Positions 2,079-13,038 of a stretch of 22,560 bases of DNA are shown in pieces (within the stretch, counting starts at the first letter, position 1; each line of letters starts with the position of its first letter). A program made the translations under genes and the position numbers. The notes under the pieces were generated by a model, which saw only the letters and a program-made list of their open reading frames with translations, was not told where the DNA came from and searched no databases. This DNA comes from Gemmatimonadota bacterium (GTDB taxonomy: Bacteria > GCA-2686955), in assembly GCA_002686955.1 (NCBI GenBank), contig NYZA01000244.1, positions 1 to 22,560 on the forward strand. Direction: 5' to 3'.

Positions 2079-3860
2079 TTACCAGAGCCCCGCCAGCTCG
2101 ATCAACGCAATATCGTACGAGCCACCCACCGAGTAGACCAACGAATGCCCGTCCGGCATCCAGTCCGGTCCCCGCCGTGCCTTGCCGACCTTCGAAACCA
2201 AGAGCCTCGGGCCGCCGCCCTTCATCGGGGCGAGATAGAGATCCGAGTTGCTGGGGTCGGTTCTTTGGAACGCTACATAGACGCCGTCAGGAGAGAAGGA
2301 GGGTGCGGTGTCGGCGGTCAAAGGGTCCGATCCGAGGGTGAGTGGACGCTGCTCGCCGGTCTCGAGGTTGAACATCTCAATTCCGGGGGATTCACCCCAT
2401 TGAACGCTGTATACGATCCAATCGAGATCTTTCGATAGGGAAGGGTAGAGGGGCTTGCCGTCCCGTCCCGCATCGAGCAATACCGGCTCGCTCTCGGCGT
2501 CTTCGATATCGAGGCGATAGAGGCCGGTGGTTTCGTTCCGATTCGATGCGAAGATCACGCTCTTTCCGTCGGGAGTGAAGCTCGGCGTTTGATCGTCCGC
2601 CGGATCGGTGGTGAGCCGTCTCTCTCTGAGGCCGGGGAATGTCCGCAGATAGATGTCCAAATTGCCTTCACGTCGCGACGAGAACGCAAAGCTCAGGCCT
2701 CCGGGGGACCAGACGGGATCGGCGTTTTCCCATCGGTCCTCGGTCACGCGCCGCCGCTCCGTCCTCTCCGGTCGAATATCGGCGACCTCCAGGTCGCCAT
2801 TGCAGCAATAGAGCACGAGCGTGCGTTGGGGAGAGATGGCCGGCTGCGTCAGGTCGTGCAGCGGATCGCGCAGAATCGAATGCGGAGGCTTGTCCTCCTG
2901 ATTCAGCCAGATCCACTCCAACGCCGCCGGGTCGTAGCGCGTTACGAGAACCGCCCGGTCCCCCATCCACGATGGGGATGAGCCGAGGGGCGGATCGCCG
3001 TCGGTCGCTCTGAGGCGCCGCTTCTCCGTCTCGAGTATGCGAACGACACGCCCCCGCGAGGAGTGCTCGTCGACGGCCACCCATTTGCCGTCCGGAGACC
3101 ATGCGGGATGGCTCGGGTCGTTGAGATCGACCGCAACGGTTGTCGGCTTCGATCGATCGAGGTCTCCCAGCATCAGCACCCCCTTCTCACCGACGACGCT
3201 TCTGAAGAAAAGATGGCTGCCGCCGGGGTCCAGTGCCGGTTGCCTCTGGTCCCCCGGCCCGCCGTAGAGGAGTGTGGGCTCGCCGCCGATCAGGTCGGTC
3301 CGGTAGATATCGAGTCCCTCGGTGGTCCCTTCGAGTCTCCTTGCGTACAGGATCGCATCGCCCGAGGGCAGCCAGATCGGATCGAGCGCCTGTTCCCCCT
3401 CGGCGGTGAGCGGATTGGGATCCCCGCCGCGTGTGGGCAAGACCCAGATTCGGGTTTCGACGCTGTCCGGAAGTGTGTCGGCATCGAGGCGCAGGCGCCG
3501 GAGGTCGTGCGCTTTCCCCGATGCCTGCTGTCCCTGCCCGTCCGAGGCGCCCACGCAGAGAATCCGCTCACCATCCGGCGAAACCCGCGGAGTCGCGACC
3601 CGAAGCCCCTCTTGGGAAAGGCGATGGGGAAGGTCGGAGCCGTCCTCCAGCGAATGGAGAGCGGGGCCGGTCCCCAGATCGGCCACATAGACGAAACGGT
3701 CGCCGGCGCGTTGCGCGTCCCTCTCATCGGCGGGCGTGACCAGGAGATCTTCCTCGCGAAAACGGACCGCCGCGGGAGCCCGCTCCTCGTCCGCCTGCCC
3801 CGAACAGGAGGCGATGAGGGCGGAGGTCGTCCCGAGAACGATGGCCGCGCGGCTGCTCAT
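2079..3860 (-). CDS. PD40/TolB-like beta-propeller lipoprotein
   Basis: A 593-aa exported lipoprotein. The N-terminus is a lipoprotein signal peptide with lipobox IASC, making Cys19 the lipidation site. The rest is a string of PD40/WD40-like blades of the TolB type, each with an (S)PDG turn followed by a beta strand: RVSPDGERILCVG (92-104), WSPDGKWVAV (254-263), VWSPGGLSFAFSSRREGN (383-400), SFTPDGKSVIFASN (427-440), SFSPDGVYVAF (521-531) and DWMPDGHSLVYSV (566-578), plus more degenerate blades. It probably forms one or two propellers in the periplasm or at the outer membrane, mediating protein contacts; it lacks any catalytic domain. Its ATG overlaps the stop of the upstream Clp-RF2 fusion (ATGA), indicating translational coupling, and DUF2058 follows 10 bp later. 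It is not TolB itself: there is no Pal/TolA context, and it is longer than TolB. Confidence 0.85.
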   Translation of the reverse strand: MSSRAAIVLGTTSALIASCSGQADEERAPAAVRFREEDLLVTPADERDAQRAGDRFVYVADLGTGPALHSLEDGSDLPHRLSQEGLRVATPRVSPDGERILCVGASDGQGQQASGKAHDLRRLRLDADTLPDSVETRIWVLPTRGGDPNPLTAEGEQALDPIWLPSGDAILYARRLEGTTEGLDIYRTDLIGGEPTLLYGGPGDQRQPALDPGGSHLFFRSVVGEKGVLMLGDLDRSKPTTVAVDLNDPSHPAWSPDGKWVAVDEHSSRGRVVRILETEKRRLRATDGDPPLGSSPSWMGDRAVLVTRYDPAALEWIWLNQEDKPPHSILRDPLHDLTQPAISPQRTLVLYCCNGDLEVADIRPERTERRRVTEDRWENADPVWSPGGLSFAFSSRREGNLDIYLRTFPGLRERRLTTDPADDQTPSFTPDGKSVIFASNRNETTGLYRLDIEDAESEPVLLDAGRDGKPLYPSLSKDLDWIVYSVQWGESPGIEMFNLETGEQRPLTLGSDPLTADTAPSFSPDGVYVAFQRTDPSNSDLYLAPMKGGGPRLLVSKVGKARRGPDWMPDGHSLVYSVGGSYDIALIELAGLW

Positions 3861-6800
3861 GGGGCGGTGGGCTCCGCCGCGAGCGCCGCGAGGATGAAGT
3901 CGTCGATCTCTCCATCCAGCACCGCCCGCACATCGGTCGACTCGTGCTCACTTCGCGGATCCTGGACACTTCGCCGACCGATCAGCAGCACATTTCGGGC
4001 GATCGTCGCCAGCTCGTCGTCGTTCACATCCGACTCGGCCAGTCCGGCGGAGAAGGCGGCCGCCAGCTCTTCCGCCGCCGGGCTCTCGAGTGAGGTGCGC
4101 AAGCTCCAGCGCCGGTCTTTGACGCGGAACGATACGATCCCCCGTGGCGCGGAGATGAATTTCGTCTTCGAGGAGCGGCTCGCGCGGTAGCGAAGGTCGT
4201 TCGGGCGCGGCGGATCGCCCTGCGGCTCCGGGATCACATGAATCCGCGCCACGACGGTGCTCCTTTCACCATCCGGTCGGGTCTGAACCCGCCGGTGGGT
4301 ACCGGTCTCGCGCCGGAGCAATCCAAAAGCGAAGGCGCCATCGATGTGCAGCACCGCACTCCCCCGGGTCGATCCCCGAAAACTCCTCTCGCCGACGATT
4401 TCAGCCTCCATGCCGCGGCGGGTCCCCCAGCGCTCGTAGAGGCAGGCCAGCTCGTTCACCCAGGCTACATCATCGGGCGTATGGTCTCCCGCGGTGAGGA
4501 TCACGAATGCGCTCCTGACATCGCCGGGCATCGAGAGCAGGGTTTCCAGCTCCATCTCTTCCGACTTCAGCTCGATCTCGGCAAGCTTCTGGTCCGCTTC
4601 GGGGAGCAGCTCGCGGTGCCCCTCTCCCACCAAGTCGGCCAGCAGCGCAGCCTCCTCCAGCTCGACCCGAACCGCTCGGTCGCGATCGAGAAGGCGATTC
4701 TGCTCCGCCAAGGAGCGCAGAACCGATGTCGACGTTTCGGAATCGTCCCAAAAACCGGGTCTTTCCATTTCGCGACGAAGCTCCTCCGCCCTCTTTTGGG
4801 CGGACGGGATCCCGAGGCTTTCGGCGAGGTGATCGATGCGCGCCTTCGTCGCCTCGATCGCCTCCAAGATCGCCTCGAGGGAGCGATGCTCGCCCGCTTC
4901 GGCGGCTTTTGCCACGAGACCCGGTGATGCCGCGACCTCGTGCACGACTTCGGCGACCACCGAACCTTCTCGTGAAACGAGGCGCACCGTGTCTTCGGTC
5001 GAAAGGGCATGCCCGGCGAGCAGCCGGGCCAGAGGCACCGCCACGAGCTCTTCGACGGCCCGCTTGAGCTCGCGGGCGCCGTATCGTCCACTCTGTCCTC
5101 GATCGAGGACCAGATCGGCGACGCTGGGATCGGTCTCCACCACGATTCCACGACGGACGACCCCTTCGCGGGCGATGCAGCGCCCGATTTCGCGAAGAGC
5201 GACCGTGCGAAGATCGTTCAGGGAGAGACGGCGGAAGGGAACGACGCGGTCGATCCGATTCATGAACTCGGGACGGAAGAAACGCTGCACTTCTTCGCGG
5301 ATCGCCGCGGCCTCGGCGGCGGCGCGGTCGCGGGTGAATCCGAGGCCGCCCTCCGTGCCGCGATCGGAGCCGAGATTCGAGGTCATGATGATGACGCTCT
5401 CGTGGAAGCCCACGGTTTCGCCGCGCGTGTCGGTCAATCTACCCTCGCCCAGCACCTGTAGGAGCAGATCGAAAACGCGCGGATGGGCCTTTTCGATCTC
5501 GTCGAAGAGGATGACCGAAAGAGGATTCTCCCTTACGGCGCCGGTCAGATGCCCGCGAGCACCGGCCGCCCCCTCGCGGGCTTCGATCAGACGGTCGACT
5601 GCGAGCGGATCGGAGAACTCGCTCATATCGAATCGCAACATCCTTTTCTCGTCGGCGAAGAGATAGGCGGCGAGCACCTTGGCCGTCTCGGTCTTGCCGA
5701 CACCGGTCGGCCCGGTGAAGAGGTAGGTGGCGATCGGGCGCTGCGGATCCTGGAGCCCGGTTTTCATGCGCGCAACCGTGTCTTGCATCGTGGAGAGCGC
5801 GTCGTCCTGTCCCAGGATCCGTTCTCTGAAGAAGGTGCGTGTCTGCTCCAGATCGAGTGTTTCGGAGTCGAGCACCAAGAACTTCGGCAGTCCGGTCTTG
5901 AGGCTGAGCTCACGGGCCACGTCCTCCGGTGTGACGAGGCTTTCCGATCCCTCCCTTACGGTTTCGAAGGCGGTTCGCAGTAGATCGATCCCCTTCGCGG
6001 GGAATCGTTCGTGTCGCAAAAACCGGGCACTCAGGTCGATGACGCGGTCCACCGCCGCGGATTCGATCCTGGGGCCTTCGTTTCTGCGGATCCAGGAGCG
6101 CGCCGCCAGCAGGATCTCCCGCACCTGCCGCCGCTCCGGCTCCTTCACGTCGACGAGTGTGAGCGCCCGAGCGAGCTCCGGGCGACTGCGAAGCATGCGT
6201 CGCAGAGGTTCGGGGTTGCCGTCGGCGATCACCGTGAGCTGATCCGCGGAAAGCAGGGGCGCAAGCGCGCCGGCCATATCCTCTTCATGCGCGCGCGTGG
6301 CGCCGGCGCCCATCAGATGATGGAAGCGGGGGATATAGATGATCGTCCCGGGAGCGCGACGCGCTTCGTCGACCAGGCGGGTGATTTTGGTCTGCCACTC
6401 TCCCAGGTACTTGATATCGGTCTGCAGCGCGGTGGGGGAGAGCTCGAGGATTCGGCTCTCTTTAAGCGGCTCAGGGCATTCACCGGCCGCGATGCGTCGC
6501 GCGACTTCGTTGATCAGCGCAGTCTTGCCCACTCCCGGCTCTCCGGCCAGGAGGACCGAACGTCGCGCCGGTCGCGACAGGACCCGTATGACGCGGAGAA
6601 CGAGCTCATCCGATCCTCGCCAGGGCAGGGAGCGCTCCGCGTCGACCGTCATCGGACGGGCGTTCACCGAGAGCACGTCCTGCTCACTCCCGCCCGCCGG
6701 ACTGGTCACACTGTCGCCGGCCGGCATCGGCGAACCCGACTCGATCCGTGTCTCGAGGGTTTGAAGCGCCGCGGCCAACTCGGGATCATCGAGCCGATCG

Positions 6801-7894
6801 CGATCGATCTTGGCCAGAAGCTCAGCCGACTCCTCGCCGTCTCCGTATTGATCGAAGAGCAGTCGCGCCAGATCGAGGCGCGACTCCGCGTCATCCGGGT
6901 CGACGCTGATCGCATCGCGAAGCCAGCGCTCCGCCATCGGGAAGTTTCCGCGAGCGATGAAGAAGAGTGCCGTTCCAAGGTGAATGGAGGCCGGGCGAGG
7001 TGTCTCGATGGCCGCGAGGACCTCTTCGATCGGTCTGCCGTCCGATTCCGCCGCCCATTGCTCGATGACGAGCGAGGAGGGCGCATGGTCGAAGGCATCG
7101 ATTCCTGCGAGCAGCAACGCTGTTCCCGTTCTTCGGTTCCCACCGAGCAGCTCGATCCAGCCGAGCTCGCGCAGGTTGTGCGGGTCGTGGCCGTGGCGGG
7201 TGAGCTTGGTGAGGTGGGCGGCGCGGGCGAACTCCGGACGGCGCACGTGATCCCAGAAGATCAGTCCCAAGGGCAAGTAGGCTTCGGCCGCGGGGGACGG
7301 ATGGACGACAGCCGCGGCGAGCGCGCTGATTGCGAGATCGAGGTCGCCGTGTGCCTGGGCCAACATGCCGAGGCGAGATTGCAGCTCGGCGTTTCCTTTG
7401 TGCTCCCCCAGAGCGCGGGCCGCCTCTGCTCGCGCTTCCGCGCGCAAGTCGAGTCGCTCGAAGATCTCGATCGCATCGAGAGAGACGGCAATCTCCTGTG
7501 GAGCGCGGTTCCGCGCCTTTCTCGCCCAGTCCGCGGCCGACTCTCCGTCCTTGGCCAAGATGCAGAGTCTGGCCAGCTCAAAACAGGGGTCGGCGTCGTC
7601 GGGGCGGAGCTCGACGAGTCGCTGATAGAGGGGGGCGGCCTCGTCGAGCTGATCGAGGTCGATCAGGGCCGCCCCCTCGAGCGCGATCAGCTCCGGATCG
7701 TTCCGCCGAATCTCCGGATCGATCTCCGAGAGCAGCTCCATTGCCGCCTCGCCTCCGGACGATTCCAGCGCCGCGCGAATCTCCGATTTCGTCTCTTCGA
7801 CCGCTCCGTTCTTCTTGTTCGCCTCGCCTTTTTTCGCTCTCACCGTAAGGTTGCTCTCTCTGCTGGGTTGCCCCTGAAGCACCGCGCCTCCCAC
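3857..7894 (-). CDS. TPR - ClpA/B-type double AAA+ - RF2-like fusion
   Basis: A single 1345-aa frame. Residues about 40-390 are TPR-like helical repeats in place of the Clp N-domain. AAA1 (about 425-665) has Walker A GEPGVGKT (451-458) and pore loop KYLG (495-498), but its Walker B reads IIYIPRF (518-524) with the D-E pair replaced by P522-R523. AAA2 (about 680-985) has Walker A GPTGVGKT (728-735), Walker B ILFDEIEK (795-802), sensor-1 MTSN, Arg finger FRPEFMNR and sensor-2 GARELKR, but the pore motif GYVG is GAAG (775-778). Walker A spacing matches ClpA, so there is no M-domain. Residues about 1004-1340 align along their length with RF2: PCRF helices, LERWG-like and RRETGTHRRV segments, and C-terminal VRAVLDGEIDDFI. 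The GGQ loop is deleted and SPF is absent. GTG 7894 follows GGAGGA closely; GTG 7882 or 7843 are alternative starts. Domain calls are firm; function is inferred. Confidence 0.93.
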   Translation of the reverse strand: MGGAVLQGQPSRESNLTVRAKKGEANKKNGAVEETKSEIRAALESSGGEAAMELLSEIDPEIRRNDPELIALEGAALIDLDQLDEAAPLYQRLVELRPDDADPCFELARLCILAKDGESAADWARKARNRAPQEIAVSLDAIEIFERLDLRAEARAEAARALGEHKGNAELQSRLGMLAQAHGDLDLAISALAAAVVHPSPAAEAYLPLGLIFWDHVRRPEFARAAHLTKLTRHGHDPHNLRELGWIELLGGNRRTGTALLLAGIDAFDHAPSSLVIEQWAAESDGRPIEEVLAAIETPRPASIHLGTALFFIARGNFPMAERWLRDAISVDPDDAESRLDLARLLFDQYGDGEESAELLAKIDRDRLDDPELAAALQTLETRIESGSPMPAGDSVTSPAGGSEQDVLSVNARPMTVDAERSLPWRGSDELVLRVIRVLSRPARRSVLLAGEPGVGKTALINEVARRIAAGECPEPLKESRILELSPTALQTDIKYLGEWQTKITRLVDEARRAPGTIIYIPRFHHLMGAGATRAHEEDMAGALAPLLSADQLTVIADGNPEPLRRMLRSRPELARALTLVDVKEPERRQVREILLAARSWIRRNEGPRIESAAVDRVIDLSARFLRHERFPAKGIDLLRTAFETVREGSESLVTPEDVARELSLKTGLPKFLVLDSETLDLEQTRTFFRERILGQDDALSTMQDTVARMKTGLQDPQRPIATYLFTGPTGVGKTETAKVLAAYLFADEKRMLRFDMSEFSDPLAVDRLIEAREGAAGARGHLTGAVRENPLSVILFDEIEKAHPRVFDLLLQVLGEGRLTDTRGETVGFHESVIIMTSNLGSDRGTEGGLGFTRDRAAAEAAAIREEVQRFFRPEFMNRIDRVVPFRRLSLNDLRTVALREIGRCIAREGVVRRGIVVETDPSVADLVLDRGQSGRYGARELKRAVEELVAVPLARLLAGHALSTEDTVRLVSREGSVVAEVVHEVAASPGLVAKAAEAGEHRSLEAILEAIEATKARIDHLAESLGIPSAQKRAEELRREMERPGFWDDSETSTSVLRSLAEQNRLLDRDRAVRVELEEAALLADLVGEGHRELLPEADQKLAEIELKSEEMELETLLSMPGDVRSAFVILTAGDHTPDDVAWVNELACLYERWGTRRGMEAEIVGERSFRGSTRGSAVLHIDGAFAFGLLRRETGTHRRVQTRPDGERSTVVARIHVIPEPQGDPPRPNDLRYRASRSSKTKFISAPRGIVSFRVKDRRWSLRTSLESPAAEELAAAFSAGLAESDVNDDELATIARNVLLIGRRSVQDPRSEHESTDVRAVLDGEIDDFILAALAAEPTAP

Positions 7895-7946: not shown

Positions 7947-8981
7947 CTACTGAATCGTCACCTCGTAGCGGTCCCACTCCAACGTATCGTCCAAGCTCGT
8001 GCCGATCCAGGCCGCGACGCTGTAGGTTCCGGTCGGAGCGGCCATAGGGATCGGGAAGTTCATGGTGTATGTGTCGACGTCTCCCGACATGATCGAGTAG
8101 CTGTCCTGGAAGATCGGATTGGGGCCGATCTGGGTGCCGTTCCGGTAGGCGATCATCCAGATCTCGAGATCCTGATCGTTCCGGCTGATGTTCCTCATGT
8201 CGATCGGCACGGAGAGCATGTCGCCTCTCGAGACCGTGAAACTGTCACCATCGACATCCATCGGCACCTCGGAGAGCCGTTTCGCGCCGAGGATCTCCTT
8301 GTATTCGGGCTCCTGCACATAGACGACGACATTGAGATCGTCCTTCTTCCACGCGCCGTTGATCGAGATCGACTGGCTGAAATAGGTCATGCTGCCAACG
8401 TTCTTCCCGTTCAGGTCGATGTTCGCGACATGGTCGCGCAGAACGCCGTTGTAGTGGCGACTTCCGGCCGTCAGGTCGTTTTCGGTGAGCGCGATACGGA
8501 GCTCGGGGGTTCCTTGTTGCCAGAGTTGCTCGATGACCTCGACCGAACCCTGCACCGTCCAGGTGTTGTTGCCGGTCATGTCGCCGGTGAGCCGAATGTC
8601 GACCATCGGATCGTAGTTGCGCCGGCCGTTGAAGCGTTGGCGATAGGTGTTGTACATCGGACCGCCGGCCCCGATGACCTTGGTAATGCCGCCGAAGATC
8701 ATGGTCGGCGTTCCAGGATTCCCGTAGTAGGACCGACGAGCGTCGCCATCGGCGTTCGAGAGCGCATCGCTCATGTGGTACTCGATGAAGATGGTGCCGG
8801 CGCGGCCCTCCTCTACTCGGAGTTGCTCGGCGGCGGCGTCGGCCTGAGGGCAGTAGCCGCACCACGACGCGGTGACCAGCTCCATCGCGACGCAACGGGG
8901 AATGATGTCCTGGGCGGCGTGGGCCGGGGAAAGCGCGACGCCTCCCATCACGGCGAGGGCGAGATATGCGTGCTTGGTCAT
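7947..8981 (-). CDS. Omp28-like exported thioredoxin-fold protein
   Basis: A 344-aa secreted protein. The signal peptide ends near SPAHA-AQ (about 22). The thioredoxin-like domain carries the redox motif WCGYC (Cys41, Cys44) and the cis-Pro loop GTPTMIFGG, as in the Omp28 family of FCB-group bacteria. The remaining ~230 residues are beta-rich Ig-like modules without recognised catalytic residues. ATG 8981 is chosen over the longer frame because it starts the signal peptide and is preceded by GGAGAG seven nt upstream. It follows the DUF6029-like barrel gene by 40 bp and precedes the Clp-RF2 fusion by 52 bp without a visible terminator, so all may be co-transcribed. Its partner at 11227-12951 is a longer paralogue of the same type. 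It lacks a FlgD-like tail, so it may be periplasmic or attached differently. Confidence 0.82.
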   Translation of the reverse strand: MTKHAYLALAVMGGVALSPAHAAQDIIPRCVAMELVTASWCGYCPQADAAAEQLRVEEGRAGTIFIEYHMSDALSNADGDARRSYYGNPGTPTMIFGGITKVIGAGGPMYNTYRQRFNGRRNYDPMVDIRLTGDMTGNNTWTVQGSVEVIEQLWQQGTPELRIALTENDLTAGSRHYNGVLRDHVANIDLNGKNVGSMTYFSQSISINGAWKKDDLNVVVYVQEPEYKEILGAKRLSEVPMDVDGDSFTVSRGDMLSVPIDMRNISRNDQDLEIWMIAYRNGTQIGPNPIFQDSYSIMSGDVDTYTMNFPIPMAAPTGTYSVAAWIGTSLDDTLEWDRYEVTIQ

Positions 8982-9021
8982 TCGGTTCTCTCCAAACGAG
9001 AAATGGAGTGGTCGGTGAAAG

Positions 9022-10671
9022 CTAGAAGCGTTGGAGCAGCTCCATCCGCCAGCCTTGGAAGGGCTGGATGAATTTGCAGGTTCCGCCGCGGCACACCACA
9101 CCGCCCCGTTCTCGGCCGAACTGGAGTCCAAGACGCGACTGCTGGGTGATATCGAGGTCGACCCCGGCGATCCAGTAGAAATCCTCCAGCGGCTCCAATG
9201 CTCCTTTATAACCCACAGCCTCCCACTGCTCAGCCTCGTTCGTTCTCTCGTAGCTGACGAATGCCGACAGCCATGGGGATCGAGAGTAGGTCAGCGTGCC
9301 GATTCCATCGTGAAATATGGGCGGCCGATCATCCGGGAAGTCGCTTCGGAAGAGCTCCGCGAAACGGCGGTCATCGGTCCTTTGATACTCGAGCGCGACG
9401 ATCAATCCGTGCACCTCCCCCAGCTCGAGCTCATTGGTCAGGCCGAGGGTCTGCTGCGTCTTCTGGGCTCCGAGATGCCCGTCGACGGTCAGATCGGCAA
9501 CCAGATGCGCCGACCAACCTTCTCGCACGGGATGATCGACTCTGAGAGTCAGCTCTTCGATCGTGTTGGTGAGACTTCCGGAGAACCCTTCGAATCTCAC
9601 CCACCGCGGCCAGGCGAGCTCGACCTCGTCGCCGCCCCCAGCGAGATCGAAATACGACCGATCACCGGTCTGCAGATAGAAGAGCGAGAAAGAGCTGCCC
9701 GCGTCGGTCTCGAAGGCACCCTCGAGCGAGAATCCGAGCTCGTTGTTCTTGTTGACCAGGAACTGCTTGCGATTGAGTGTCGCGAGATCGGATATCGGCC
9801 GCAGTGAAGGCGGCTCCGACCAGGGAACGCCCACACCCGAAAAGGTCGACGTAAACGACTCTTCGCCGAATGCGTAGTTCTTGTAGGCCGCGGTCAGGGT
9901 GAAATCATCGAACCAGCGGTCGATCTCGACGAAAAACCCGCTTCCGGAAGGTCCACCGCGGGGGGCGCCGGAGATTCGAAGCCAGTTGCGAACGACTTCG
10001 CCATAGACCGATCCCTGATCAAAATCGGCGCGCAGCGTTGTAAGGCTTTTGCGGTTGATGTGCTGGCTCTCCCCCGGCACTCCATCGCGCGTCTCGACAT
10101 AACCCTGCCCGAGCTCCAGCCAGTCCATTGCCCGGTAGGTGCCGTGCACCGCCCCCACGCGGTCGCGGCGATACCCCTCGGGGAAGTCGAATTGAAGGAA
10201 GTTCCCAATCCCCCCCAAGAGGCGCAGAGAGTATCGGTCGACCCGTCTCTCCAGCAAAACCCCTTCGAGCTCTCGATCGACATTGACGGCCGGATCTTCG
10301 TAGAGATTCAGGCCGAGTCCTCGTCCGAGAAGCGCGCCAAACGATCCGACGCGCAGGTGGTTGGTGCCGTCCTCGTACTCGAGGAAGCGCTTGCGGACTC
10401 CGGTGTACTCGTCGCCGTAGAAGAAGGGATCGAGATGATCGAAGCGTCCGCCCAGGACCCAATTCTCCCAGCGCAGCTCGAGTGTCAGCCGGCTCTCCAG
10501 CACCTTCTTGTCCTGGTCGACGGGGCTGAGCCCTTCGAACACCGACTCGTCCCCGCGCTGAATCCACATCGATTCATGCCCGCGAATGGAAACCTCGCCG
10601 ATCTCGAATGCCGTGGCGACAGGGGCCGCGGCGGCAACGCCGACAAATGCGGAAACGCTGCGTGTCATCAT
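9022..10671 (-). CDS. DUF6029-like outer-membrane beta-barrel protein
   Basis: A 549-aa protein with an N-terminal signal peptide (cleavage near VATA-FEIG), many alternating amphipathic beta strands rich in aromatic and charged residues, and a C-terminal Phe (MELLQRF), the usual Bam recognition signature. Length and strand pattern fit the DUF6029 barrels found next to Omp28/TlpA genes in FCB bacteria. A feature worth noting is a CRGGTC motif 23 residues from the end (Cys527, Cys532), which could form a small disulfide loop before the last strand. The start is coupled: ATG 10671 overlaps the TGA of the upstream TlpA-like gene (ATGATGA), and no independent Shine-Dalgarno is visible. No ligand or transport role can be read from the sequence. 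The barrel assignment is stronger than the specific DUF number. Confidence 0.78.
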   Translation of the reverse strand: MMTRSVSAFVGVAAAAPVATAFEIGEVSIRGHESMWIQRGDESVFEGLSPVDQDKKVLESRLTLELRWENWVLGGRFDHLDPFFYGDEYTGVRKRFLEYEDGTNHLRVGSFGALLGRGLGLNLYEDPAVNVDRELEGVLLERRVDRYSLRLLGGIGNFLQFDFPEGYRRDRVGAVHGTYRAMDWLELGQGYVETRDGVPGESQHINRKSLTTLRADFDQGSVYGEVVRNWLRISGAPRGGPSGSGFFVEIDRWFDDFTLTAAYKNYAFGEESFTSTFSGVGVPWSEPPSLRPISDLATLNRKQFLVNKNNELGFSLEGAFETDAGSSFSLFYLQTGDRSYFDLAGGGDEVELAWPRWVRFEGFSGSLTNTIEELTLRVDHPVREGWSAHLVADLTVDGHLGAQKTQQTLGLTNELELGEVHGLIVALEYQRTDDRRFAELFRSDFPDDRPPIFHDGIGTLTYSRSPWLSAFVSYERTNEAEQWEAVGYKGALEPLEDFYWIAGVDLDITQQSRLGLQFGRERGGVVCRGGTCKFIQPFQGWRMELLQRF

Positions 10672-11189
10672 TGTTGGGCGTCGGTGCCCGGGGCGGCGGA
10701 CAGGAGTTTTTTGATCTCCGCCTCGATCTCATGCTCGTCCCCTGGACGATAGCCGGTAAATGTCCGCACCGATTGCCCCTTCTTGTCCACCAGAATGTTC
10801 GTGGGAAGCGCCGCCACACTCATTCGCTTCGAGTACTGCCCCTGCGGGTCGAGCAACACCGGATAGCTGAGCCCGAGCTTGCGCGCCGCGGGCTTCACTT
10901 TTCCGACCGAGCTCACATTGTCGACGCTGATCGCGACAACCTGCAAACCCTGAGCCTTGTACTTCTCGAAGAGCTTGATCAAATGTGGCGCTTCTTGCTT
11001 GCATGGCTTGCACCAGGTCGCCCAAAAGTTGATCAACAAGGGCCCCTTGCCAAGATAGTCCGCGAGCTTTGCGCGGCCGCCGTTCATCTTCTCGAGATTG
11101 AAAGTGGGCGTCTTCTCCGCGGCCAGGGCGGAGGGGATCGAGAGGGCCGTCAGTATCAGGGCGATGAGTGTGGCGCGAATTAGGCGCAT
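10668..11189 (-). CDS. TlpA/ResA-like thiol-disulfide oxidoreductase
   Basis: A 173-aa exported thioredoxin-like protein. The signal peptide is about residues 1-23 (hydrophobic LIALILTALSIPSALA). The redox site is FWATWCKPC (Cys60, Cys63), the cis-Pro is in AALPTNILVD (Pro129), and the AhpC/TSA-Redoxin-type insertion of the TlpA/ResA group is present. Such proteins keep periplasmic cysteines reduced, for example in cytochrome c maturation or for partner redox proteins; no ccm/ccs gene is nearby, so the client is more likely one of the co-encoded Omp28 or barrel proteins (inference). GGAG lies about 6 nt before ATG 11189. It starts 37 bp after the Omp28-FlgD gene and its TGA overlaps the ATG of the DUF6029-like gene. 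Confidence 0.9.
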   Translation of the reverse strand: MRLIRATLIALILTALSIPSALAAEKTPTFNLEKMNGGRAKLADYLGKGPLLINFWATWCKPCKQEAPHLIKLFEKYKAQGLQVVAISVDNVSSVGKVKPAARKLGLSYPVLLDPQGQYSKRMSVAALPTNILVDKKGQSVRTFTGYRPGDEHEIEAEIKKLLSAAPGTDAQQ

Positions 11190-11226
11190 GAAGGTCTCCG
11201 CGAGAAGGGCCGCTGAGCGTGTCGGA

Positions 11227-12951
11227 TCACTTGAGCAGGAGCATCCGGCGGGTCTGGCTGCTCTCGCCTGTGGTCAGGCGGTAGAGATAGACGCCGCTCG
11301 GCAATGAGAGCCCCTGAGCATTGGTGCCGTCCCAGACGACCCTGTGATGTCCGGCGGCCTTGGGGCCATCGACCAGGCTCTTCACCTCGCGCCCGCTCAG
11401 ATCGAAAACTCTGAGCTGCACCCTTTGTTCGTCGGTCTCGACCTCGTAGGTCAGAGTGGTGCGAGGATTGAAAGGGTTTGGTTGATTCTGATGCAGCAGG
11501 GTCGCGGTCGGGCGGGGCAGTCCTCGATCGTCTCCTTCGATGCCGACGGCGCCCACGGGCACATAAATCGTATCGATGACGACCGCTCCCTCGCCGTCGG
11601 TGAAGGTCTGGGCGAACGCCAGCGTCGAACCGGGCACCACATCGACATCGAGGATGAATCGACCTCCGCTTCCGTCCACCGTAGCGTCCTTTTCGATGTC
11701 GCCGTAGGCTTCATCCGCTTCGATAATGATGACGCTCGGATCGGTGATCGTGAGCTCCGAGGTCACATCGTATGCGATGAATGGCCCCGAATTGTGGGCG
11801 CGAGTGATGAACTCGATCGCCTCTCCAGGCTCAGGAATTCCGTTTCCATTTCCGTTGCTTCCACCCAGGTCATCGTCGTCGATCAGCAGCTCGGCGACCT
11901 CGAGAGCCACCGCGCCGGAGCGGGCGGTGTAGGTTGAGCCCTTGATGACATCGTAATTCTCGCCGTACTTCATGAAGAAGCTGCTCGTGATGGTCGGATC
12001 GGTCGCGCCGATGTCGACCCATTGGAGCTTGACCGTGACGGTCGAATCGGCCGGCATCGTCAGGTCGAGAGAATCGGGGAGGCAGATTCCCCACTCCAGG
12101 ATGCAGAATGTCGCCAGCCAACCCTGGGCGGTGAGGTCTTCCATCTGCATCCGCATGTCGATCGGATAGGAATTTGGGTTGGTGAGGTAGGTGTTGATCG
12201 TTCGCGATGAATCTTCCACTGCCGTCACCAACTCCTCGGTCGACGCGAACTCGGTGAAGAAGAGGCGCGTGGACTGGTCGATCCGTCTGTCGGCGTGATC
12301 TTGCACGAACGCGACGACCTCGAGCGCGGGGGTCTTCCACTCCTCTGCGATGGCGAACGACCCGGTGAAGACGGCTTCGTCGCCCTTCTGAACCAGCCCG
12401 GCCAGCTCATGGGAGACGATGCGGCGAACGACCGGGCGCATCTCCTCGTTGTCGTCGATCAGCCCGCGCTCCCCGAGCGCCACATAGAGCTTCGGATCGA
12501 CGTAGTCGGGTGGAGCATCCGCCAGAGCAAGAACCGTGTAGTCGACCCGGTCGCCGGCGACTGTCCCGGTCATCGAGAGCTCGATCTGCGCCTCTTCGAC
12601 CATGTCGGCATCGATTCGGTTCTTGTAGTCGTCGTAGACCTCATCGTAGCCGCCCACGATCTTCCGGTTGCCGTCGAAAGCGGTGGTGGGAGTACCGCTG
12701 ATGTTGTAGTAGCTGATCCTGCTGTTCGACTCCGCATTCGAGTACTCGTCGTTCACGTGGTAGCTGATCACGACGAAGCGGTCGTAGTCGTACTCCCCTT
12801 CGAGATCGTGGAGGGCGGACTCCGCCCAAGGGCAGTAGCCGCACCATGTAGCGGTCATGAGCTCCGCCATGACACTTCGATCCGCGGCCCGGGCGGAGCC
12901 GGCGGCGAGAGCGATCGTGCAGGCGAGGGCGATTCTGGGCGCGCGCTTCAT
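11227..12951 (-). CDS. Omp28-like thioredoxin-fold protein with FlgD-like sorting tail
   Basis: A 574-aa secreted protein. ATG 12951 begins a clear signal peptide (KR...ALACTIALAAGSARA) and has AAGGA upstream; the longer frame from 12981 would spoil it. The thioredoxin-like Omp28 domain has WCGYC (Cys37, Cys40) and cis-Pro motif ISGTPTTAFDG (Pro88). The middle (about 110-475) is Ig-like/CARDB-type beta sandwich with an acidic Asp/Gly/Asn-rich segment (DDDDLGGSNGNGNG). The last ~95 residues are a FlgD-type Ig domain with hallmark pieces QNQPNPFNP, VFDLSGREV and SGVYLYRLTTG, ending in MLLLK; such tails act as secretion/anchoring signals related to type IX sorting domains. It is the first gene of the minus-strand cluster and probably its promoter-proximal member. 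The redox role is inferred from the CxxC. Confidence 0.88.
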   Translation of the reverse strand: MKRAPRIALACTIALAAGSARAADRSVMAELMTATWCGYCPWAESALHDLEGEYDYDRFVVISYHVNDEYSNAESNSRISYYNISGTPTTAFDGNRKIVGGYDEVYDDYKNRIDADMVEEAQIELSMTGTVAGDRVDYTVLALADAPPDYVDPKLYVALGERGLIDDNEEMRPVVRRIVSHELAGLVQKGDEAVFTGSFAIAEEWKTPALEVVAFVQDHADRRIDQSTRLFFTEFASTEELVTAVEDSSRTINTYLTNPNSYPIDMRMQMEDLTAQGWLATFCILEWGICLPDSLDLTMPADSTVTVKLQWVDIGATDPTITSSFFMKYGENYDVIKGSTYTARSGAVALEVAELLIDDDDLGGSNGNGNGIPEPGEAIEFITRAHNSGPFIAYDVTSELTITDPSVIIIEADEAYGDIEKDATVDGSGGRFILDVDVVPGSTLAFAQTFTDGEGAVVIDTIYVPVGAVGIEGDDRGLPRPTATLLHQNQPNPFNPRTTLTYEVETDEQRVQLRVFDLSGREVKSLVDGPKAAGHHRVVWDGTNAQGLSLPSGVYLYRLTTGESSQTRRMLLLK

Positions 12952-13038
12952 TCCTATATCCTTGGAGACGGTGTGCTTCAAATAGGGCTATGAATGCAGT
13001 ATGGGCTGATTAGTATGGTAAGCGTATGAGCGCCCGTG

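Follow-up and report, generated by a model that had tools for sequence, protein, structure and literature searches.

The fusion gene and its surroundings

The window, i.e. the whole stretch of 22,560 nucleotides that was analysed, contains a reverse-strand gene that joins a TPR region, two AAA+ rings (AAA1 and AAA2) and a C-terminal part related to release factor 2 (RF2); positions are given in Table 1. Judged by its sequence, the gene is a class-I Clp-type double-ring AAA+ ATPase that ends in a presumably inactive RF2 module. The frame is open from 7894 to 3857 and has the codon structure of coding DNA (GC by codon position 0.72/0.47/0.77), and the true start may instead be an in-frame GTG 17 codons downstream of position 7894. 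A full-length orthologue is found in the one genome of the same family that was compared (G001, locus L086; 61% identity over 1319 aa).

Table 1. Positions of the fusion gene, its domains and motifs, and the adjoining gene (all on the (-) strand)
Feature	Positions	Residues	Remarks
PD40 beta-propeller lipoprotein-like gene, downstream	2079-3860		start overlaps the fusion stop (ATGA)
Whole fusion gene, TPR - AAA1 - AAA2 - RF2-like	3857-7894		1345 aa; GTG start at 7894
N-terminal TPR region	6725-7807	~30-390	Pfam TPR_19 (E=1e-14), TPR_2, TPR_16
AAA1, ClpA/B/C D1-like	5945-6625	424-650	AlphaFold2 model, pLDDT 86
AAA1 Walker A, GEPGVGKT	6521-6544	451-458	Lys kept in 52/52 clade members and 27/27 canonical proteins
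AAA1 pore loop, KYLG	6401-6412	495-498	aromatic retained
P522-R523, replacing the AAA1 Walker B D-E pair	6326-6331	522-523	within IIYIPRFHH (6317-6343)
IADGN at the AAA1 sensor-1 position	6215-6229	556-560	sensor 1 lost
D558, end of AAA1 beta4	6221-6223	558	acidic (E or D) in 52/52 clade members; 26 Ala and 1 Ser in canonical proteins
AAA2, Clp D2	4940-5932	655-985	Pfam AAA_2 (E=3e-47) and ClpB_D2-small; catalytic set complete
AAA2 Walker A	5690-5713		Lys kept in 52/52 clade members
AAA2 pore loop, GAAG instead of GYVG	5561-5572	775-778	aromatic lost
AAA2 Walker B, FDEIEK	within 5489-5512		Asp and Glu kept in 52/52 clade members
AAA2 sensor 1, TSNLG	5369-5383		Asn kept in 52/52 clade members
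L851-G852-F853, ClpP-binding-loop position of ClpA/ClpC/ClpX	5336-5344	851-853	x-G-F in 52/52 clade members
AAA2 Arg finger, FMNRID	5249-5266		Arg kept in 52/52 clade members
AAA2 sensor 2, GARELKR	5060-5080		Arg kept in 52/52 clade members
RF2-like module, PCRF and degenerate domains 2-4	3860-4897	1000-1345	PCRF E=3e-19; NCBIfam prfB 132 bits
G-T-H-R, RF family motif	4292-4303		retained in fusions
YRASRSSKTK in place of the RF2 GGQ loop	4160-4189		YRAS-GAGGQHVN-RT in RF2 against YRAS-RSSKTK; loop deleted
RF tail QDPRSEHESTDVRAVLDGEIDDFI	3893-3964		most conserved stretch of the RF2-like module

A link between the PD40 gene and the fusion was sought beyond the window genome and was not found. 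Upstream (window 7947-12981) lie Omp28-like, DUF6029 and TlpA-like thioredoxin genes, an order that is kept in G001 (L144); a tRNA-Arg (ACG) gene occupies positions 575-651. The neighbouring genes were rejected as a clue to function, as the Omp28/TlpA/DUF6029 block is common to G001 only and no neighbour is conserved in the other lineages. A role as a defence system was likewise dropped: PADLOC matches only generic AAA and assigns no system.

Spread of the family and selection

The fusion was found in at least six lineages. The order AAA1-AAA2-RF occurs in at least 77 of the 195 genomes of one other phylum (all except one from a single family, mostly with genomes of 9-14 Mb), and further in G525, in G329 (with a TPR N-terminus), in G052 and, at a contig edge, in G026. 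In a broad sample an AAA+RF profile match was obtained for 7/386 genomes, which makes it a rare fusion with a patchy distribution. The G525 gene (L213) is flanked by apparent pyrR and pyrB. In G052 (L090 / L145) and G438 (L216) the TPR region is replaced by what looks by eye like an N-terminal membrane helix, followed by a HEAT-like helical region, and this sequence suggests a membrane-anchored form for the branch; the G438 copy itself is broken: its reading frame is split, and the Walker A of AAA2 is altered (GPTATRKTE).

A second form consists of three tandem Clp genes, present in G166, G227, G322 and a Lujinxingiaceae MAG (L047), where some of the genes have eroded RF-like ends. A contig scan gave almost only canonical Clp, but one of its hits proved to belong to the L047 cluster and thus to the clade. 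Inspection of the tandem genes at L153, L154, L217 and L047 shows a degenerate AAA1 and an AAA2 without GYVG in all three, together with some RF-like C-termini. Possibly the three ATPases form a hetero-oligomeric machine. By eye, type I restriction-like genes follow the cluster at L217 (14288-18035) and a DNA methylase gene lies about 2 kb from it at L047 (11900-12703); no such link to the cluster was seen in L153 or L154.

In a maximum-likelihood tree of the AAA1-AAA2 part, RF-type and cluster proteins (including L047) share one side with branch support 100/99, separated from the 30 canonical Clp rows used for comparison. The RF-like domains, which are present in most clade members, also form one group (support 100/100), though with long branches. 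The window protein fits the pattern of the clade: a degenerate AAA1 Walker B, an acid at 558, an intact AAA2 without GYVG and an RF-like C-terminus.

Over twelve pairs of sequences dN/dS amounts to 0-0.17 for AAA1, 0-0.10 for AAA2 and 0.02-0.27 for the RF-like module: every module, including the degenerate ones, is under purifying selection. Strain-specific noise, which a first-pass annotation of the window had named as the finding that would undo its reading of the rings, is refuted by this range for AAA1 and by losses that extend over all 52 clade members. A decaying paralogue or an assembly artefact might be suspected from the loss of several catalytic motifs, but the frame is open, orthologues exist, dN/dS is far below 1 in all modules and the protein is conserved across phyla; we therefore reject decay and consider this origin hardly conceivable.

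Motifs of the two rings and of the RF2-like module

Motifs were compared between 52 members of the clade and 27 canonical Clp proteins. The first-pass annotation had described an AAA1 that keeps Walker A and KYLG, with P522-R523 at the Walker B acidic pair and IADGN at sensor 1, and an AAA2 with a complete catalytic set and a GAAG pore loop; all motif positions that it named are correct to the base, and the description applies to the window protein throughout. Alignment of the homologues, the check it had proposed, shows that the two losses go together and are shared by the whole clade: a Walker B Glu in AAA1 is present in 0/52 clade members against 27/27 canonical proteins and GY[VI]G of AAA2 in 0/52 against 24/27, while the catalytic residues of AAA2 are kept in 52/52. 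The G001 orthologue also has P-R in AAA1, with QQIG, lacking the Tyr, in the AAA2 loop. In addition the Arg-finger pair of AAA1 (ERRF) is degenerate, a point that had gone unmentioned.

In the AAA1 pore loop the window lineage has an aromatic Tyr (KYLG), as does G329 (KYIG), while G525 has Phe. An aromatic is also retained by 8/11 cluster proteins; in G052 the position is taken by His. The aromatic is missing in 36/39 main-type proteins; these 36 are the ones from the large-genome phylum, the largest branch, and they carry a conserved Trp in the remodelled AAA2 loop. Going by the motifs, the only canonical aromatic pore loop of the window lineage is that of AAA1.

In the AlphaFold2 model of AAA1-AAA2 (built from a 29-sequence alignment; pLDDT 86) the AAA1 Walker B strand comprises residues 517-521 and the following strand 554-559. 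The strand following the Walker B strand is its neighbour in the established order of the AAA+ sheet, which places residue 558 at the tip of the neighbouring strand. On this model it is possible that residue 558 stands beside the lost Walker B Glu and could act as a substitute catalytic acid.

Two further elements had been overlooked in the first-pass annotation, namely the tripeptide at the position of the ClpP loop and the RF2-like module. The tripeptide I-G-F/L distinguishes ClpP-binding Clp ATPases from ClpB (PMC9495089), and x-G-F is likewise seen in certain Clp proteins with short linkers that may or may not partner ClpP. ClpP genes are present in 10/10 genomes checked.

Residues 1000-1345 match E. 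coli RF2 (PDB 1gqe) over RF2 residues 15-363 (E=8e-22), and the PCRF / release factor 2 matches of Pfam and NCBIfam span residues 1014-1242. For a single-sequence model of the module (pLDDT 56) Foldseek returns RF2 as top match (E=2e-11), but TM scores are low; given this weak model, RF2 homology is claimed from the sequence. The stand-alone RF2 proteins sampled share 79 conserved columns, 24 of which are kept in at least 60% of the fusions. The retained ones are mainly Trp and Gly residues of the core, the GxHR motif and the D-P-R-T...LxGExDxF tail; the GGQ, SPF and AGAGG blocks are lost. No fusion has the GGQ loop, which is deleted throughout (where the letters GGQ do occur, in a few fusions, they sit at other positions), and the SPF stop-codon motif is missing as well (RKSPFDSGGR in RF2 against QTRPDGERS in the fusion). 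With these motifs gone, the module is predicted to be no longer able to read stop codons or to hydrolyse peptidyl-tRNA.

Termination is not the task of the fusion, since the window genome encodes a separate canonical RF1 (L001, GPGGQ) and RF2 (L002, GAGGQ; adjoining a lysS-like gene) elsewhere. The same genome contains another RF2-like C-terminus without GGQ (G000:C136:1-726, L155); it shares 40% identity with that of the fusion, is cut by a contig edge and is probably part of a paralogous fusion.

Possible function and comparison with known systems

Our best guess, a tentative one that we place a little below an even chance, is that of an AAA2-driven Clp remodeller which an RF2 module without catalytic activity targets to the ribosome. 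What is established for AAA+ proteins suggests AAA2 as the motor. AAA1 would bind ATP and, having lost the canonical hydrolysis site, would serve as a structural or regulatory ring or work via an acid moved to beta4. With less certainty, the RF2-like module would anchor the motor to ribosomes, its site being probably the A site or its vicinity, and leave the chain unreleased; the TPRs would recruit a partner, the ATP-driven AAA2 would pull on or remodel a ribosome-bound protein, and the freed chain might pass to ClpP via the x-G-F loop. A replacement of the known ribosome rescue routes was considered and rejected, since SmpB and NFACT/RqcH-type genes are each present in 9/10 genomes checked.

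The retained GxHR and RF tail argue for docking on the ribosome, and the loss of RF-specific contact blocks, including SPF, argues against it. Because these blocks are lost, the RF fold may be reused for protein contacts only. Away from the ribosome it would then mediate protein-protein contacts or oligomerisation, and the protein, as a specialised Clp, would remodel or disaggregate unrelated clients; we take this reading seriously without regarding it as probable. It agrees not only with the absence of GGQ, SPF and AGAGG but also with the conserved neighbours of the fusion examined across lineages, among which no translation gene was found, and with the tandem-cluster paralogues, whose RF-like part is yet more eroded or absent. 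Nonetheless, very distant lineages keep GxHR and the RF tail, which would hardly be required of a free scaffold.

The rings themselves allow other readings. The first-pass annotation had proposed that the aromatic loop of AAA1 grips without hydrolysis while AAA2 hydrolyses without grip. The motifs of the window lineage, G329 and several cluster members agree with such a split of labour, but the main-type proteins, with no AAA1 aromatic in 36/39 and Trp in their AAA2 loop, do not; moreover, although the Walker B Glu is indeed lost, the absence of hydrolysis in AAA1 is not secure, as the acid at 558 in every member leaves room for it. We consider this split unlikely as a general explanation. It might also be argued that AAA1 is alive and has a rebuilt active site, in which the end of beta4 (E/D558) has come to supply the catalytic acid in place of the Walker B strand (beta3). 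The exchange is complete in both directions (558 acidic and Glu lost in 52/52; Ala or Ser at 558 and Glu kept in 27/27 canonical proteins), residues 554-559 form the strand next after Walker B in the AlphaFold2 model, and Walker A is kept in 52/52. Against this, sensor 1 is degenerate, as is the Arg-finger pair, and in a monophyletic clade the swap may be a single event. We judge a rebuilt site quite unlikely. Equally doubtful is the most specific version, a ribosome-docking Hsp100 in which the dead RF2 is a built-in A-site decoy and the acid of AAA1 has moved from beta3 to beta4, and which would remodel or extract nascent chains or ribosome-bound proteins, possibly handing them to ClpP.

In the full text of open-licence papers, searches on this architecture and its parts met with no account of a Clp ATPase joined to a release factor; a Clp clade whose intact-ATPase ring has lost its pore aromatic was not found either. 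If the RF module of the remodeller still binds ribosomes, translation and Clp unfolding would be directly and physically connected in bacteria. The fusion would also be a natural test of whether grip and power must share one ring for threading, and of whether an AAA+ catalytic acid can move between strands. As the protein is frequent in one large-genome family, a genetically tractable host probably exists.

Among known systems the AAA part is most like ClpC and ClpA: ClpC is the top Foldseek match, the AAA1-AAA2 fold is shared and the ClpB middle domain is absent (the inter-ring linker has 59 aa against 179-189 aa in ClpB; 57-66 aa over the clade against ~180). Of the features that mark ClpA and ClpC, the [LIV]-G-[FL] loop is found (LGF, 851-853), whereas two active sites and the AAA2 GYVG are not; AAA1 has lost its Walker B Glu and sensor 1 and has a degenerate Arg-finger pair, a TPR region takes the place of the N-domain and an RF2-like module is added at the C-terminus. 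To ClpB/Hsp104 the AAA2 is highly similar and TIGR03346 gives the best family score, but at 403 bits the fusion stays far under the curated cut-off of 1232; the window genome encodes its own ClpB (C173).

A ring site that is inactive or specialised is known from dynein AAA2. Pex1/Pex6 shows that a machine with an inactive D1 above an active D2 can function (PMC10518020). In p97 only D2, and not D1, bears the aromatic pore motif (PMC10216129); the window protein, with its aromatic in AAA1, is arranged the other way round. The aromatic that grips the substrate stays in the active D2 ring in all of these systems, whereas the intact-ATPase ring of the fusion has lost it.

With RF2 (PrfB) the homology is full-length, including PCRF, GxHR and the tail, but the fusion lacks GGQ and SPF and is joined to an AAA+ motor. 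The RF2-like rescue factors PrfH/RFH and ArfB keep GGQ. Descriptions of RFH are given in PMC1586002 and PMC6514570. Eukaryotic ribosome quality control offers an analogy only: in Vms1-Cdc48 a protein with a release-factor fold and an AAA+ unfoldase likewise meet at the ribosome (PMC6514570), but they are separate proteins, the RF fold is unrelated and Vms1 is catalytically active. Should the ribosome-docking Hsp100 prove true, the fusion would be a one-protein counterpart of this pairing.
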